Positions 2,143-18,495 of a DNA stretch of 32,681 nucleotides are shown one piece after another; within the stretch, counting starts at the first letter, position 1, and each line of letters starts with the position of its first letter. The DNA is from Leptolyngbyaceae cyanobacterium SM1_4_3 (GTDB lineage Bacteria > Cyanobacteriota > Cyanobacteriia > Elainellales > Elainellaceae). The DNA lies in NCBI GenBank assembly GCA_012031415.1, contig JAAUTN010000038.1, positions 1 through 32,681 on the forward strand. The letters are read 5' to 3'. A program made the position numbers and the translations under genes. The notes under the pieces are model-generated. The model did not search any database, was not told where the DNA came from, and worked only from the letters and a program-made list of their open reading frames with translations.

Positions 2143-2991
2143 ATGATAGAAAAAATTTTGCTTGCAAGTTCTGGCACGGGGCAATCTGAAGAAATGCTCA
2201 AAGCGTTGATGGAAATTCCTTCTATCCAACGATCTACAGTTAATGTTTTGCACGTTGTGCCACCTCAGGCTAGTGCTGATGCCATGACTCAAAAGTGGGA
2301 AGATGGCGGCAAAACACTGGCAGTGGCAATTCAAGCTCTAGGGCTTGACCCAAATCGCACAACCGCAATGTTGCGGGAGGGTGATCCTAAAGACGTGGTG
2401 TGTCGAGTCGCCGAAGAGATCGACGCTGACCTGATCATCATGGGGTCACGAGGGCTGAAGCGCTTGCAGTCAATTTTGGAAAATTCGGTCAGTCAGTATG
2501 TGTTTCAACTGGCTTCGCGACCCATGCTGTTGGTCAGAGATGATATCTATGTCAGGAAGATCAATCGCATCATGGTGGCGATGGATAAATCTGACTCGGC
2601 TCAAGCTTCTCTGAAGCTGGCACTGGCGTTTTTGCGAGATATCAAGGGTGGGCAGCTTGTCCTAGTTCATGCCAATCCTGATCTGAAGGTAAAGCGGGAT
2701 GAGGTGGAGGTTGATCCAAACCAAGATCCGGTTTTGCTTCCGGCGATCGCTGAGGCAAAAAAACTGGGCATCAACTATCGCTGTGTAGCGCCAGTCGGCA
2801 AGCCGGGAGCGCGAATTTGTCAGATTGCTGATGAGCTAAACGTCGATTTACTGGTACTCGGTTCGCCGGAGCGCCGCCCCTCCATTGCAAAAGCGCTGCC
2901 CGATTTAGATCGTCTACTGGGACAATCCCTCTCAGACTACGTGCGGGTTTATGCAAACTGTCCGGTGATGTTGGTTCGCACTGCTGCCTGA
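2143..2991 (+). CDS. tandem-domain universal stress protein (UspA family)
   Basis: Its 282 residues form two Usp domains, about 1-145 and 146-282, each with the alpha/beta nucleotide-binding fold. The first ends with IIMGSRGLKRL ... SRPMLLVR and the second with LVLGSPERR ... CPVMLVR, which are the usual phosphate-loop and final-strand segments. In domain 1 the G-2x-G spacing is kept, with Asn where the last Gly often sits. In domain 2 the loop is enlarged and lacks the second Gly, so that half may not bind ATP. Cytoplasmic, with a probable stress or dormancy role. A strong terminator follows. Confidence 0.9.
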   Translation: MIEKILLASSGTGQSEEMLKALMEIPSIQRSTVNVLHVVPPQASADAMTQKWEDGGKTLAVAIQALGLDPNRTTAMLREGDPKDVVCRVAEEIDADLIIMGSRGLKRLQSILENSVSQYVFQLASRPMLLVRDDIYVRKINRIMVAMDKSDSAQASLKLALAFLRDIKGGQLVLVHANPDLKVKRDEVEVDPNQDPVLLPAIAEAKKLGINYRCVAPVGKPGARICQIADELNVDLLVLGSPERRPSIAKALPDLDRLLGQSLSDYVRVYANCPVMLVRTAA

Positions 2992-3031
2992 GGAATGTAG
3001 CTCGAACAGGGTAATCTAAACCGTGTAAATT

Positions 3032-3076
3032 AATGAGCGTTGCTGAATTCTGATATTTTGCAACGCTCATTGTTTT
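3032..3076 (+). terminator. intrinsic terminator of the universal stress gene
   Basis: A perfect 12-bp inverted repeat (AATGAGCGTTGC at 3032-3043, its complement at 3060-3071) with a 16-nt loop is followed by GTTTTG, about 40 bp after the stop codon. Confidence 0.75.
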
Positions 3077-8151: not shown

Positions 8152-9720
8152 CTACTTTTCCTCTACCCAAGCTTCCAGCATACTGGCGGGAATTTGGATA
8201 AAGGGATGAGCGAAGACAGCTTTGAGTGCTTCACGTCCTCCTACATCCATTGCTTTTTGTAGCCGTCGTTTCAGCGTTGGATATTGTTGAATCGCTTGCT
8301 CTACCGATAGCTCGGCTTGCTGAGGCGTGGGGTTAGACTGCGCTAGTTTTTCGAGCAGCTTTTGGATATCACTACGCAGCGCTGTGAGTGAGGCATCTTC
8401 GGTGAGTGAGTTGAGCGGCACGACCGCAGCCACTTTATCTGATGGAACGGTGACAGGGGGTGCAGGACTAATTGTAACAGTGTCAGAAGCAGGATCATTG
8501 GCAAAGCGGCGCGTCATGCCTGCTACATCAATGCCTGCGGCTTGGCGCAACTGTTCTAAGAACGAAGCGACCTGGGTAGCGGTACCACCGTGTTTCGTGT
8601 CGATCACACTAACGTTTTGCACGTCTATGTCGGGCACGGTGGAGGTAAGGGTTTTCAGCAATACTTCTAGTTTTTGGAACAGGAAGATTTCACGAGCGTT
8701 GGGGCCAGCAGCTTTCCAGGACTCGGTTAAACGTTTGGTACCCAGTGCTTGAGCTTTACCGTCTTCAATGATGCGAGAGGCGTTACCTTTTGCCTGGGCG
8801 ATCGCCCGCTTACACTCTGCCTCAGCCGGAGCGACTACATCCGCCTGAAGCTGTTGCTCAACCTGCTTAATGCGTTCCGTTTGCACGGCGACGTTTGCCT
8901 GGGTGCGGGCAACGATTGCGGCAATCTCACCTTCGGCTTCAGCAATAACGGCTGTACGTTTGGTGAGGGCATCCTGAATCCGCTGGTCGGCTTCTGCTTT
9001 GGCAATTTCAATCTTCGTTTCAATCTGCTTTAACGACGTAGTTTGTTGGTTTGCAGCCGTGCGAATGGCGGACTCAGCCTGTGCTTGAGCTTCGGCAATT
9101 CGGGCATCACGCAGCAGGTCTGCTCGCTGTTTGCGTCCAATTGAGTTGAGATATTGCACGTCATCGGAGATATTTTGAATCTGGAGGTTATCTAACACCA
9201 GTCCTAGTTTCTCTAAATCATCTTCCGCCTCTTCGAGCAAACTTCTAGCAAAGGCAGATTTATCTTCATTAATTTGCTCTGGAGTGAGACTGGCTAACAC
9301 GCCGCGCAAATTACCTTCTAGCGTTTCCTTAGCCATTTGCATAATCTCTTTTTGGCTCTTACCCAAAAGCCGCTCGATCGCATTGTGAATCGTGGGTTCT
9401 TCCCCCGCGATTTTGATGTTTGCTACTCCTTCTACAGTGAGTGGAATGCCGCCTTTGGAGTAAGCACTAATTACCCGCAGGTCAATAATCAGGTTAGTCA
9501 AATCCATCCGAAAGGCGCGTTCTAGCAAGGGCACTCGGACGCTGCTGCCGCCTTTAACCAGACGATAGCCAACCTTACGCCCAGTTGAAAGAGTGCGACG
9601 GCTTCCGGCAAAGATGAGAATTTCACTGGGCTGACAGATGTAATAGAGGTTGCGGAGTACCAGCGCTCCAGCCCCGGTTCCAGCGCCGAGGGCGATGAGT
9701 AATGCAAGAATGGCTTCCAT
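8152..9720 (-). CDS. flotillin-like SPFH/band-7 membrane protein with C-terminal extension
   Basis: 522 residues. A membrane helix occupies residues 3-22, followed by the SPFH domain (about 28-205: LIFAGSRRTLSTGRKVGYR, then YSKGGIPLTVEGVANIKI). A long Ala/Glu/Gln-rich coiled coil follows (about 205-320), then the flotillin C-terminal region. Flotillins scaffold ordered membrane microdomains. About 110 residues at the end (Ser/Pro-rich linker, then QQYPTLKRRLQKAMDVGGREAL) go beyond a typical flotillin and may be a protein-interaction domain. The start lies 2 bp after the stop of the upstream flotillin, so the two are translationally close and probably form a hetero-oligomer. Confidence 0.88.
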   Translation of the reverse strand: MEAILALLIALGAGTGAGALVLRNLYYICQPSEILIFAGSRRTLSTGRKVGYRLVKGGSSVRVPLLERAFRMDLTNLIIDLRVISAYSKGGIPLTVEGVANIKIAGEEPTIHNAIERLLGKSQKEIMQMAKETLEGNLRGVLASLTPEQINEDKSAFARSLLEEAEDDLEKLGLVLDNLQIQNISDDVQYLNSIGRKQRADLLRDARIAEAQAQAESAIRTAANQQTTSLKQIETKIEIAKAEADQRIQDALTKRTAVIAEAEGEIAAIVARTQANVAVQTERIKQVEQQLQADVVAPAEAECKRAIAQAKGNASRIIEDGKAQALGTKRLTESWKAAGPNAREIFLFQKLEVLLKTLTSTVPDIDVQNVSVIDTKHGGTATQVASFLEQLRQAAGIDVAGMTRRFANDPASDTVTISPAPPVTVPSDKVAAVVPLNSLTEDASLTALRSDIQKLLEKLAQSNPTPQQAELSVEQAIQQYPTLKRRLQKAMDVGGREALKAVFAHPFIQIPASMLEAWVEEK

Positions 9721-9722
9721 GA

Positions 9723-11141
9723 TTAGTTTTCTCCCTCTGGCTGTACTTTCTGAGCGTTACTGTTCTGGGCGTGGTATCCGTTTTGCTGGCTGAGTGTGCC
9801 GACGACATCAATTCCCAGGGTTTGATCAACCCGATCGAGAAACTGACGCACGGTTTCGGGGTAGGCGTTGACCAAGCTAGCGATCGCCTTCCCATCTCCG
9901 TTATCAATCACGTTGATATGCTTGAGGTGAACCCGACCGGGAATCTTCGCCGCCTCTTGCAGCACCATTTCAATTTGCTGGGTTAAGAACACCTCTGAGG
10001 CATTGGTTCCGGCTTCCTGCCAAACTTCAGCAAACAGATCATTCACCTGTGCCGCAGCCTGAGCATTTTCAGAGAGAACAGAGGCTTCCCCTCGTGCTTG
10101 CAGTTCCTTTGCCTGACGTTCAGCTTCGGCGGGCAAAACCTGATCGGCTTCCAGACGCAATCGTTCTAACTCAGCTCGAATTGTTTGAAGCTCCTGTTCG
10201 GCTCTGGCTCTGGCTTCTTGAGCAGCAGCAGTAGTGCGCTCTTCCTCAGATTTTGCCTGTTGCTCTAGTTCTGCTTTGATTCTACGTAACTCATTTTCTT
10301 TTTGCTGAATGATTGAACGCGCTTGGGTTTTTGCCACCTCTGACTGACGCTTGCAGTCTGCTTCGATTTGCTCTGCCTCAGTCAGAGCGTTGGATTCGGC
10401 AATTTCGGCATCACGCAGCACCACAGCAATCTGGCTGCGACCAATCGAGTTGAGGTAATCGACATCATCGGCAACACTTTGAATTTTTAAAGTATCAATG
10501 TGTAGACCCATCTTGGACAAATCGCGGCTGACATCTTCAGTGATGCGCTCGGCAAACACCAGTCGGTCTTCGTTCAATTCTTCCGGGGTGAGAGTGGCAA
10601 CTACGCCGCGCAAGTTCCCCTCTAACGTCTCTCTCGCCACACGGGAAATTTCGGAAGAGTCACGATCGAGGAAGCGTTCAATTGCATTGCCGACAACCAT
10701 TGGATCGCTGGAAATTTTGATGTTGGCGATCGCCTGAATCTTTAAAGGAATTCCCCCTTTGGAGTAAGCATTCTTTACCTCTACTGGAACGGGCATAGTG
10801 GTCAAATCCATCCGCTTGATCGTTTCCAGAATCGGAATGCGAACGGTGCGTCCGCCAAAAATCACTCGATAGCCAACGGTTTCACCTTCTTTGGTGCGTC
10901 GCTTCAATCCTGATAGAATTAAGATCTCGTTGGGGTTACAGATACATAAGATGAGTTTGTAAATCCAAATGAAAATGGCGATCGCCACCAATATTGAGAT
11001 TGCTAACGGCAAACTTCCAACCAGTTCATTCCTGATGCCATTGTTGGACGTTTCTGCTGGGAAAATAGGATCAACTTGGGCTATTTGTGCCATTGGAATA
11101 GGTGTAGACACTAACTGAAGCTCAGCACGATTATGGTTCAT
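9723..11141 (-). CDS. flotillin-like SPFH/band-7 membrane protein
   Basis: 472 residues. A hydrophilic leader of about 42 residues precedes a membrane helix (about 43-66, PLAISILVAIAIFIWIYKLI). The SPFH domain (about 72-250: EILILSGLKRRTKEGETVGYR, AYSKGGIPLKIQAIANIKIS) and a strong Arg/Glu/Ala coiled coil (about 255-365) follow. It is paralogous to the next gene in the SPFH core but has a longer N-terminus and lacks that protein's C-terminal extension. The start at 11141 has CAGGAA about 11 nt upstream. It lies between nfeD-like and the second flotillin; NfeD partners of flotillins are commonly encoded alongside them. Confidence 0.88.
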   Translation of the reverse strand: MNHNRAELQLVSTPIPMAQIAQVDPIFPAETSNNGIRNELVGSLPLAISILVAIAIFIWIYKLILCICNPNEILILSGLKRRTKEGETVGYRVIFGGRTVRIPILETIKRMDLTTMPVPVEVKNAYSKGGIPLKIQAIANIKISSDPMVVGNAIERFLDRDSSEISRVARETLEGNLRGVVATLTPEELNEDRLVFAERITEDVSRDLSKMGLHIDTLKIQSVADDVDYLNSIGRSQIAVVLRDAEIAESNALTEAEQIEADCKRQSEVAKTQARSIIQQKENELRRIKAELEQQAKSEEERTTAAAQEARARAEQELQTIRAELERLRLEADQVLPAEAERQAKELQARGEASVLSENAQAAAQVNDLFAEVWQEAGTNASEVFLTQQIEMVLQEAAKIPGRVHLKHINVIDNGDGKAIASLVNAYPETVRQFLDRVDQTLGIDVVGTLSQQNGYHAQNSNAQKVQPEGEN

Positions 11142-15815: not shown

Positions 15816-16595
15816 TCAAACAAAACGAGTCAACTGCACCCGATAGCGTTCTTTTTTAGTCACCGCGACTTCGCCAATTTCCAGGCGACCTTTACCACGA
15901 ATGGCAACCAGGTCGCCCGATTTAAGCTGATGGCTGGGCTGGGTAATGTCCTTCCAGTTGACTCGCACATCGCCACCGCTGATCATTTCCACCATTTTGC
16001 TGCGCGACATACCAAATCCGGCAGAGGCAACCGCATCCAATCGCAAAGAAGCTTCTACGGTCGTCAGTTCTTTCTTTTTGGGTTCGCGAATTTTCAGTTC
16101 GCTCAGGTCAATTGGCCGCGTTTTGACGGGAACTGAACGCACCTGCGTCAGACTCATTTCCAGAAATTCAACCAGTTCGGGCACAACGATCGCCTGTCCG
16201 CCTCGTTCTCCCAAAACAATAATGTCGCCAACTTTGTCGCGCACCAGCCCCGTGCCCAGCAGCGCACCTAAAAAGTCACGGTGAGTCGCTGAGTCAAACA
16301 GAAAATTTCCAGCAATGTCGAGCGCAGCGATCGCCACCTGAGACTGATCTAAAGGAATTTCAGAACGGGCGATCGCTACTCGCTGGCGTTCGGCTTGCGG
16401 GTAGCCTCCCCAGGCAAGCAGTTGCACCTCGGTGAGCCGCGCAAACATTCGCTGCACCTCAGCTAACTCAGGCGGTGAAAGAAAATCGGTGCAGACCACC
16501 TCCCAGGTTTTAATCGCCTGGTCTGCCTGGTCAATCACCCGCGCAGCACTCTCTCGATTTTCGATTCCCTGAAGTAATTCTTCTCTGGGCAGCAT
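15816..16595 (-). CDS. photosystem II S4 domain protein (YlmH-like RNA-binding)
   Basis: 259 residues. The N-terminal two thirds is the YlmH-type domain (MLPREELLQGIENRESAARV; THRDFLGALLGTGLVRDKVGDII at about 104-126). The C-terminal S4 RNA-binding domain is at about 181-245 (LRLDAVASAGFGMSRSKMVEMISGGDVRVNW). Cyanobacterial members are annotated as photosystem II S4 proteins; the Bacillus relative YlmH acts with stalled large ribosomal subunits, so a translation role is an alternative. The gene lies about 320 nt downstream of a minus-strand c-di-AMP riboswitch, but an intrinsic terminator stands between them. No clear ribosome-binding site precedes 16595. Confidence 0.85.
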   Translation of the reverse strand: MLPREELLQGIENRESAARVIDQADQAIKTWEVVCTDFLSPPELAEVQRMFARLTEVQLLAWGGYPQAERQRVAIARSEIPLDQSQVAIAALDIAGNFLFDSATHRDFLGALLGTGLVRDKVGDIIVLGERGGQAIVVPELVEFLEMSLTQVRSVPVKTRPIDLSELKIREPKKKELTTVEASLRLDAVASAGFGMSRSKMVEMISGGDVRVNWKDITQPSHQLKSGDLVAIRGKGRLEIGEVAVTKKERYRVQLTRFV

Positions 16596-16664
16596 AATTG
16601 AGCGATCGCCTCAAAACTCTAATTTTAATACTGCTTGCTCAGACTCGATTGAGCGCGTCTTCCC

Positions 16665-16697
16665 AAGAAAAAGGGGCGAATCGCAAAGCGATCGCCC
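16665..16697 (-). terminator. intrinsic terminator downstream of the minus-strand riboswitch
   Basis: On the minus strand, AGGGGCGATCGC-TTT-GCGATTCGCCCCT folds into a stable hairpin (16697 down to 16670), followed by TTTTC. It therefore ends minus-strand transcription coming from the riboswitch region, before the S4 gene. One arm contains a HIP1 octamer. Confidence 0.75.
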
Positions 16698-16913
16698 CTC
16701 ACGCTGGTCAAACTTGACTTGAGCAACAGACTGGTCAGGCAGCAGCTTGTGGACTGCTGCTCGGTTGTCCACCTGACTCAGCCCAAGAAATGCAGGAAAA
16801 CCTCCGCTGCTCAAGCTTGTGAACAGACACAGCAATAAAGCTGAAGTCTGTTCAGGATACTGATTAGATCGGTGCATTGTGAAAAAATGCTGACCTTTCA
16901 GTCTCCCCTCAAT
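16698..16913 (-). ncRNA. structured leader/RNA between riboswitch and terminator
   Basis: Between the minus-strand riboswitch and its terminator lie about 215 nt with strong local structure. A hairpin TGAACAGAC ... GTCTGTTCA spans 16854-16820 with an extra inner CAGC/GCTG stem. A long-range pair CTTGAGCA/TGCTCAAG joins 16815-16808 with 16725-16718. A CAGCAG/CTGCTG hairpin lies inside. A frame from ATG 16877 stays open for 88 codons but reads through the terminator and resembles no protein I know. I judge it untranslated or a decayed gene. Confidence 0.4.
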
Positions 16914-17043
16914 GCCGACGAAGTTAGCTGACGGGCTAGGACTGAGAGATGTCCTTCTCAATTGACCTCAGAGATAAGCCCCAAATTTGGTTCCTCCGCT
17001 CTGGGAAGTGCGCTAGGAGAAGCTGCAAAACCCAGATTAAGCT
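16914..17043 (-). ncRNA. c-di-AMP (ydaO-yuaA) riboswitch, minus strand
   Basis: Read 5' to 3' from 17043, the motif shows GCTTAATCTGGG pairing with CCCAGAGCGGAGG, then AACCA-AATTTGGGGCTTATC, a variable hairpin, and the hallmark AGCCCGTCAGCTAACTTCGT closing with GGC against the 5' GC. These are the conserved blocks of the ydaO-yuaA class, which senses cyclic di-AMP and usually turns genes off. The gene it controls is not evident: it leads into structured sequence and a terminator. Its partner on the plus strand lies 344 bp away, transcribed divergently. Confidence 0.9.
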
Positions 17044-17387
17044 GACTTATTTAGTTTGATGCCAGGATAGCTTCTCGTTAGGGGCTTCGTCAACCCAATG
17101 CTTCTAATCGCTAACACACCCTACTTGATTCGCATTCCTGAGAGAATCGCGGTAAAGACTCATGAAGGCAAAGGAGCGATCGCTAAATTGCCTCAAACGC
17201 CGCCTCCATAAGGTTTCTACCCTGAGGCAGTTAGCAACTCATCCGAAGCGTGTTAACTTTGTCAAACGTTAGACGAGCCGCAATGGGCATTTGCTCTAAA
17301 ATCTCGTAGGCTGATTAATGGCGATTGCATTTCAAGCAATCACTCGTGTTTCACTCTAGTTCCGTTCTGTTTCGTTAGTTGAGTGGG

Positions 17388-17505
17388 AGCCTAATCCAAA
17401 CCTGATCTGTGGGTTTGAAGCGGAGGACCCAATTGTTTATCGGGGCTAATCTCAACATGAGAGAGACACCTTCCAGTCTTAGCCCGTCAGCTAACTCCGT
17501 CGGCT
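17388..17505 (+). ncRNA. c-di-AMP (ydaO-yuaA) riboswitch, plus strand
   Basis: Conserved blocks occur in order: AGCCTAATCC at 17388, GAAGCGGAGGACCCA at 17418, CGGGGCTAATC at 17441, and AGCCCGTCAGCTAACTCCGT at 17481, closing GGCT at 17502-17505 against the 5' AGCC. This is the ydaO-yuaA aptamer. It lies about 225 nt upstream of the universal stress gene starting at 17732, and no other gene intervenes, so it presumably controls that gene. The two aptamers in this region share the core but differ in their variable hairpins. Confidence 0.93.
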
Positions 17506-17691
17506 TTGGAAGGAGAACTCAAGAATTTGACTAAGCTACCTGTAGAAGTACTCGTTTAGGTTCACAAGGTTGTAAAACCGGAATATTCCTAAACTTGCCA
17601 ATGCAGCTAGAGTCGCTGGAGTCTCCTCAAGCAGGGTGTATTTGTTTGGATCAAACCTATCCAGACGGGTACAGTCCTTCTTTCCTGACCC

Positions 17692-17729
17692 ACCTCTCGT
17701 CTTTAATTCACTTCGTGGAGAGGTTAAAG
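17692..17729 (+). promoter_or_regulatory. Shine-Dalgarno-sequestering hairpin (riboswitch expression platform)
   Basis: ACCTCTC at 17692-17698 is complementary to GAGAGGT at 17719-17725, which contains the ribosome-binding site (GGAGAGG, 17717-17723) for the GTG start at 17732. An alternative inner pairing, CTTTAA (17701-17706) with TTAAAG (17724-17729), is mutually exclusive with it in part. Such a switch could let the upstream aptamer control translation. Folding is by eye. Confidence 0.5.
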
Positions 17730-17731
17730 CT

Positions 17732-18366
17732 GTGAAAATCAAACCGATGTTAGCGCGTCTGCAAAGTACGCTAGGTCAACGCAATCTGGTCGAGCAAATG
17801 CTGCTGTTGCCACCAGAAGTGTCTGCGGCAGCTAGCTTTCAGTCGCAGGAGTTAGTTCAAGAGTCGATTAACCTGATGATTGGCTACACGGGTTCTCCTT
17901 GTAGCCAAACGGCTCTGGATCTGACTTTTTGGATGGCGCATCAAACTCGTTTGGCGACTCAAAAGCAAGTGACGGTGCATGTGGTTTATGTGGTTGATGA
18001 GGCTGCGACCCTAACTAAAACACCTCGATCGACTTCTAAAGAAAATGGTGCGAGACAATTGCTTCACGCTTCTAAGACAGAGCGTTCTAGTACCGCAACA
18101 TTGACCCGTCCTGAGGCTCCATTTGAGAAAGCAGACCGGATTCTTTGGCAGGCTCGCTGTTTAGCTGAGGAATGGCGTGGATCGCTAAATACCCATCTAC
18201 GGATTGGTAATTGCGCTGAGGAGTTAAAGCAGGTGCGATCGCCGAATCTGCCGATGTCCTCGTTTTGGGTTGCCGTTCTGTTCGCCATCCGCTGATTTTG
18301 CAATGGGCAAAAGGGTTTCCCTGCGCGGTGTTGGGGATTCCGGCGATCGCTAATCTAGAGCTGTAG
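17732..18366 (+). pseudogene. universal stress protein under riboswitch control, single frameshift
   Basis: GTG start at 17732 with GGAGAGG 8 nt upstream. The N-terminal leader (about 45 residues) precedes a Usp fold: INLMIGYTGSPCSQTALDLT, TVHVVYVVDEA, then a Ser/Thr/Arg-rich insertion and KADRILWQARCLAEEWRGSL. At about 18235 the frame breaks. One missing G would restore [20 protein letters not shown] and the C-terminus [11 protein letters not shown], stopping at 18364-18366 (211 residues). The break touches a HIP1 octamer (18235-18242). Without repair the last third, including the nucleotide-binding loop, is lost and the frame stops at 18295. Conservation past the break suggests recent damage or sequencing error. 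Confidence 0.8.
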
Positions 18367-18371
18367 ACGCT

Positions 18372-18495
18372 TTAGAAGTCAACAGCAAAATACCTGTAAG
18401 GGCAGGTTTAGCAACAAGACTGTGGATCAACTGCAAGGATTTATGGCAAAACCTGCCCCTACCCAGGGATAAATCTTCCTTAGAAGTTAATAGCA
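18372..18495. repeat. GTAGGGGC-family element flanked by 16-bp direct repeats
   Basis: GTAAGGGCAGGTTT at 18396-18409 and AAACCTGCCCCTAC at 18449-18462 form the terminal inverted repeats. Outside them, TTAGAAGTCAACAGCA (18372-18387) and TTAGAAGTTAATAGCA (18480-18495) are near-identical direct repeats; the second directly precedes the ATG at 18496. The layout resembles insertion with duplication of the upstream region of the next gene, although 16 bp is long for a target duplication. Confidence 0.7.

Follow-up and report, generated by a model that had tools for sequence, protein, structure and literature searches.

In the 32,681-nt stretch of DNA analyzed here (the window), from the filamentous Leptolyngbyaceae cyanobacterium SM1_4_3, two c-di-AMP riboswitch aptamers lie back to back on opposite strands, between a photosystem II S4-domain protein gene on the minus strand and a universal-stress-protein (Usp) gene on the plus strand. 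The locus was compared with those of two congeners, Cyanobacteria bacterium FACHB-471 (G022) and the MAG Leptolyngbyaceae RM1_406_9 (G021), which together with the genome of the window (G000) represent three species of the genus. The features are as follows:

15816..16595, minus strand: gene for a photosystem II S4-domain protein (Sll1252 family; TIGR03069, 373 bits)
16622..16627, minus strand: -10-like box TAAAAT of the S4 gene, located by eye 3' of the terminator
16668..16700, minus strand: intrinsic terminator AGGGGCGAUCGCUUUGCGAUUCGCCCCUUUUU, with a predicted hairpin of -21.1 kcal/mol followed by a U-run
16703..16896, minus strand: folded noncoding segment after the aptamer, with a closing helix GGUCA/UGACC and three to four hairpins
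16855..16864, minus strand: AUCAGUAUCC, remnant of a family-wide switch element (A/U)UCAGUGUCCUC defined by the comparison of 46 leaders
16898..17053, minus strand: c-di-AMP aptamer RF00379 (full model, 71.9 bits, E = 5e-15), present in all three species of the genus
17064..17093, minus strand: promoter-like TTGACG-18-TATCCT found by consensus scan, with a predicted start at ~17057
17378..17520, plus strand: c-di-AMP aptamer RF00379 (full model, 65.0 bits, E = 4e-13), also present in G022 and absent at the locus in G021
17692..17724, plus strand: predicted hairpin ACCUCUC...GAGAGGU covering the ribosome-binding site GGAGAGG before the GTG at 17732
17732..18365, plus strand: Usp-domain gene, in frame to 18295 and continuing in another frame to 18365

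Elsewhere in the window, two adjacent similar long open reading frames (522 and 472 aa) occupy 8152-11141 on the minus strand, and their cross-matches indicated ~40% mutual identity.

Identity and genomic setting of the two aptamers

A first-pass annotation had placed two divergent ydaO-yuaA cores at 17043-16914 (minus) and 17388-17505 (plus). In a cmscan search with Rfam 15, both strands gave full-length matches to RF00379 (model positions 1-134 in each), which enclose these cores and exceed the gathering score of 38 bits. Each aptamer was also found to carry all three of the conserved blocks that had been recognized on both strands, GCGGAGG, GGGGCTNATC, and AGCCCGTCAGCTAAC. Both aptamers thus belong to the c-di-AMP riboswitch class, the class and divergent orientation originally proposed being right, and the Rfam scores ruled out a chance motif as an account of the two cores. 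The full matches are separated by 324 bp, 344 bp being the core-to-core distance. As the entire genome (7.8 Mb in 700 contigs) contains only three RF00379 matches, the presence of two of them within 325 bp is not due to chance. In addition, the diadenylate cyclase domain PF02457 is encoded in the genome, which makes c-di-AMP plausible as the ligand. The third aptamer (L037, G000:C473:8095-8275, minus strand) precedes an operon for an ABC transporter that includes an NMT1-like binding protein; a Usp-like gene comes after the operon.

The prospect of finding the same divergent pair in related genomes was borne out in G022, where the spacing is nearly equal (2711 to 3056 on the G022 contig). Of the 36 genomes of the family, G000 and G022 alone have the pair, making two of the three species of the genus, and no further divergent pair was found among all the RF00379 matches listed for the family (at the class level, the best 150 matches were listed). 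The minus aptamers of the congeners scored 67.5 and 70.3 bits against RF00379. In relatives such as G003, G015, G024, G034, and G035, the S4 gene and a SufU-type nifU gene are divergent neighbors with no riboswitch between them. Meanwhile, the corresponding gap in this genus holds the minus aptamer in all three species, and the plus aptamer accompanied by the Usp gene and a CxxCxxCC gene in two of them; in G021, the plus unit is absent and nifU directly follows the minus unit. The plus unit may have been either gained in G000 and G022 or lost in G021. This arrangement would be accounted for by the insertion of two independent c-di-AMP sensors into the space that originally separated the divergent genes S4 and nifU.

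The plus and minus aptamers share 63% identity, and the plus aptamers clustered with leaders of Usp genes from G027, G019, and G020 (97/84), apart from the minus aptamers. Given this low identity and the grouping with Usp leaders of other genera, the inverted duplication that had been raised as an option is not supported as a recent local event, although an AU test of both aptamers as one clade did not formally reject it (p = 0.19). Tandem c-di-AMP riboswitch doublets, of which 77 have been reported (PMC9481103), likewise place two aptamers for the same ligand close together; they lie, however, on one strand within one leader, whereas the present pair lies on opposite strands in separate, predicted transcripts. 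Among other leaders (L051, L060, and L061), two same-strand c-di-AMP aptamers were separated by ~3.5-4 kb, the first preceding an ABC operon and the second a Usp gene. Among the titles and abstracts listed in a literature search, with most subscription papers outside its scope, there was no description of a divergent c-di-AMP pair or of a c-di-AMP-sensing noncoding RNA.

The plus aptamer and the Usp gene

The plus aptamer sits in an ordinary leader in front of the Usp gene. Usp genes lie directly 3' of an aptamer in several genera, and are also the terminal genes of some aptamer-headed ABC operons. The predicted hairpin that would cover the ribosome-binding site has the same pairing arms in G022, and the Usp leader of G027 contains a similar motif. 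These features make control at the level of translation likely, in which c-di-AMP would govern Usp synthesis by hiding or freeing the ribosome-binding site. As in the ydaO/yuaA c-di-AMP riboswitch (RF00379), both aptamers here comprise the full model with every conserved block. This class, whose founding paper is reportedly Nelson 2013, is known in the context of osmotic and ion stress, and the plus aptamer likewise heads a stress-protein gene.

Alignment with G022 revealed a 1-base deletion near 18235 in the Usp gene of the window, which breaks its reading frame; Pfam Usp scored the window open reading frame at 23.4 bits and the unbroken gene of G022 at 40.5 bits. This frameshift may be either an assembly error or real decay. 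The interval between the Usp gene and the next gene contains, at 18386-18475, a short dispersed repeat whose ends (GGGCAGGTTT...AAACCTGCCC) are inverted. This repeat is absent at that position in G022; it has 13 matches in the genome, its own copy counted.

The predicted folded minus-strand RNA

On the minus side, the RNA would comprise, in order after its putative promoter, the aptamer, a conserved folded domain, and a strong terminator, with no gene. Both hexamers of the promoter-like site are identical in the alignment of the three species, and the terminator is 97% identical between G000 and G022 and is also present in G021, hence in all three. The folded segment (~194 nt) showed z-scores of -4.94 without and -5.99 with the terminator. 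Between G000 and G022, its identity was 88.7%, as compared with 89.7% for the minus aptamer, 60-74% for the flanking spacers, and 66% and 80% at the fourfold sites of S4 and nifU, respectively. Across the three sequences, 97.6% of the pairs were kept, and five pairs were changed on both sides, compared with a shuffled value of 2.6 and with 0-1 after sliding. These pair-preserving changes support the fold of the segment, the covariation being thin because only three minus RNA sequences exist. When folded singly, the G021 sequence adopted a partly different structure (z = -2.6).

The DNA of the segment was not found in the 33 other genomes of the family, and a covariance model of the segment, run on the family and a 380-genome class sample, retrieved the three congeners only, beyond two weak matches in the family search (E = 0.08 and 0.11). 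The only match of the segment to a known RNA family, NsiR9, was below threshold (16.4 bits versus 90, E = 1.2) and vanished when a narrower stretch was searched; it was therefore discounted.

No conserved reading frame was found in the minus transcript among the three species. That the transcript encodes a short peptide from an ATG at 16877 (minus) is a very improbable account: this ATG and ~27 codons do lie in a common frame in the three species, but the open lengths are at least 70 (open to the scanned end), 38, and 32 codons, a ribosome-binding site is absent, the substitutions are mostly amino-acid-changing, and the changes track the hairpins. Because no gene lies before the strong terminator, the minus transcript probably does not serve as another leader controlling a gene. 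The reading of the pair as two transcripts for two genes holds for the plus copy, the Usp leader, and probably not for the minus copy. As for the earlier suggestion that one signal would act on two transcripts from a shared promoter region, its first half is reasonable, whereas the shared promoter region is weak, since the promoter-like site of the minus strand (17093-17064) lies right next to its aptamer and conservation of the spacer is modest (70%).

With both aptamers, the conserved fold of the domain, the terminator, and the absence of any conserved reading frame all computed here, we favor at about even odds (roughly 0.5) a model in which the minus strand gives rise to a stand-alone c-di-AMP-sensing noncoding RNA of ~390 nt beside an ordinary riboswitch.

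In a comparison of 46 leaders downstream of RF00379 matches, the aptamer flank GAGGGGAGACUGA and a further-downstream CUUCAGUGUCCUC were common to many leaders of the family. By inspection, CUUCAGUGUCCUC can pair with the aptamer flank, with a terminator arm (GAGGGACGCUUUUUU), or with a ribosome-binding site. For the leaders L036-L072, the flank is given as GAGGGGAGACUGAAG and the downstream element as CUUCAGUGUCCUC. The minus RNA retains the flank and AUCAGUAUCC, and the folded domain stands in place of the usual partner; furthermore, the pairing of AUCAGUAUCC to the flank is broken in G022. The replaced partner and the broken pairing point away from ordinary cis control.

These remnants could also be read as those of a relic leader, its gene having been lost or relocated and its remaining RNA kept passively. 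In line with this, the flank and AUCAGUAUCC persist with their partner gone, the genes following the aptamers differ widely across the family, and the plus unit is missing from G021. Nevertheless, the downstream domain and the terminator are conserved like the aptamer, far above neutral sites, and the folded domain carries pair-preserving changes; such a passive remnant is accordingly improbable.

The S4 gene and the possible role of the minus RNA

The S4 gene is present in all 36 genomes of the family and is preceded by a riboswitch only in this genus; none was found before S4 in the 33 other family genomes, nor at 78 further S4 loci drawn from genome contigs. Many relatives have -10-like boxes similar to that of the window at a comparable distance from the S4 start, and the S4 gene is probably separate from the minus RNA. 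The strongest competing account, which we regard as less likely, takes the minus aptamer as the leader of S4 and the folded domain with the terminator, 200 nt downstream, as a long attenuator, through which c-di-AMP would set the read-through of the polymerase into S4 in addition to transcription from the gene's own promoter. S4 is indeed the first gene met on the minus strand, 302 nt past the minus aptamer, and the terminator-to-start-codon distance of ~45 nt in G021 leaves scant room for a full separate promoter, which keeps this account alive. However, in many leaders of the family ~120 nt accommodates both the switch element and either a terminator or a hairpin at the ribosome site, no convincing competitor was found for the 12-pair terminator stem, and S4 keeps its -10-like box beyond the terminator; the restriction of the riboswitch to this genus among the S4 loci surveyed also argues against it. 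If the S4 account were true, c-di-AMP would be linked to a photosystem II-associated protein, and we know of no report tying the two together.

In the favored model of a stand-alone RNA, we infer that the minus RNA is transcribed and responds to its ligand, the binding of c-di-AMP altering its stability or fold, and that the folded domain would act in trans on a target, either a protein or an mRNA. Predicted pairing of the minus RNA to the Usp or the S4 leader was not above the shuffled background for these two leaders. A ydaO-class aptamer joined, within a separate trans-acting transcript, to a structured domain specific to the genus, head-to-head with a conventional riboswitch, so that one signal would be played out on both an mRNA leader and a regulatory RNA, is put forward as a tentative picture, possible yet short of probable.

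A riboswitch is defined by its control of the gene that follows. The minus copy differs from the ydaO/yuaA riboswitch in heading a folded noncoding segment and a terminator, with no gene, and in its divergent placement. Rare trans-acting riboswitch RNAs are known for ligands other than c-di-AMP (Loh 2009; DebRoy 2014; Mellin 2014, as cited in PMC7266159); like the proposed minus RNA, they combine an aptamer with an RNA whose action may lie outside its own locus, and they differ from it in their ligand. In Synechocystis, a c-di-AMP riboswitch controls slr0753, and few effectors of cyanobacterial c-di-AMP signaling have been described so far (PMC10117731). A minus aptamer without a gene of its own would, if true, represent an unusual use of a c-di-AMP sensor, and, with such an aptamer at the head of a conserved noncoding RNA, c-di-AMP signaling in cyanobacteria would gain a directly testable RNA output.
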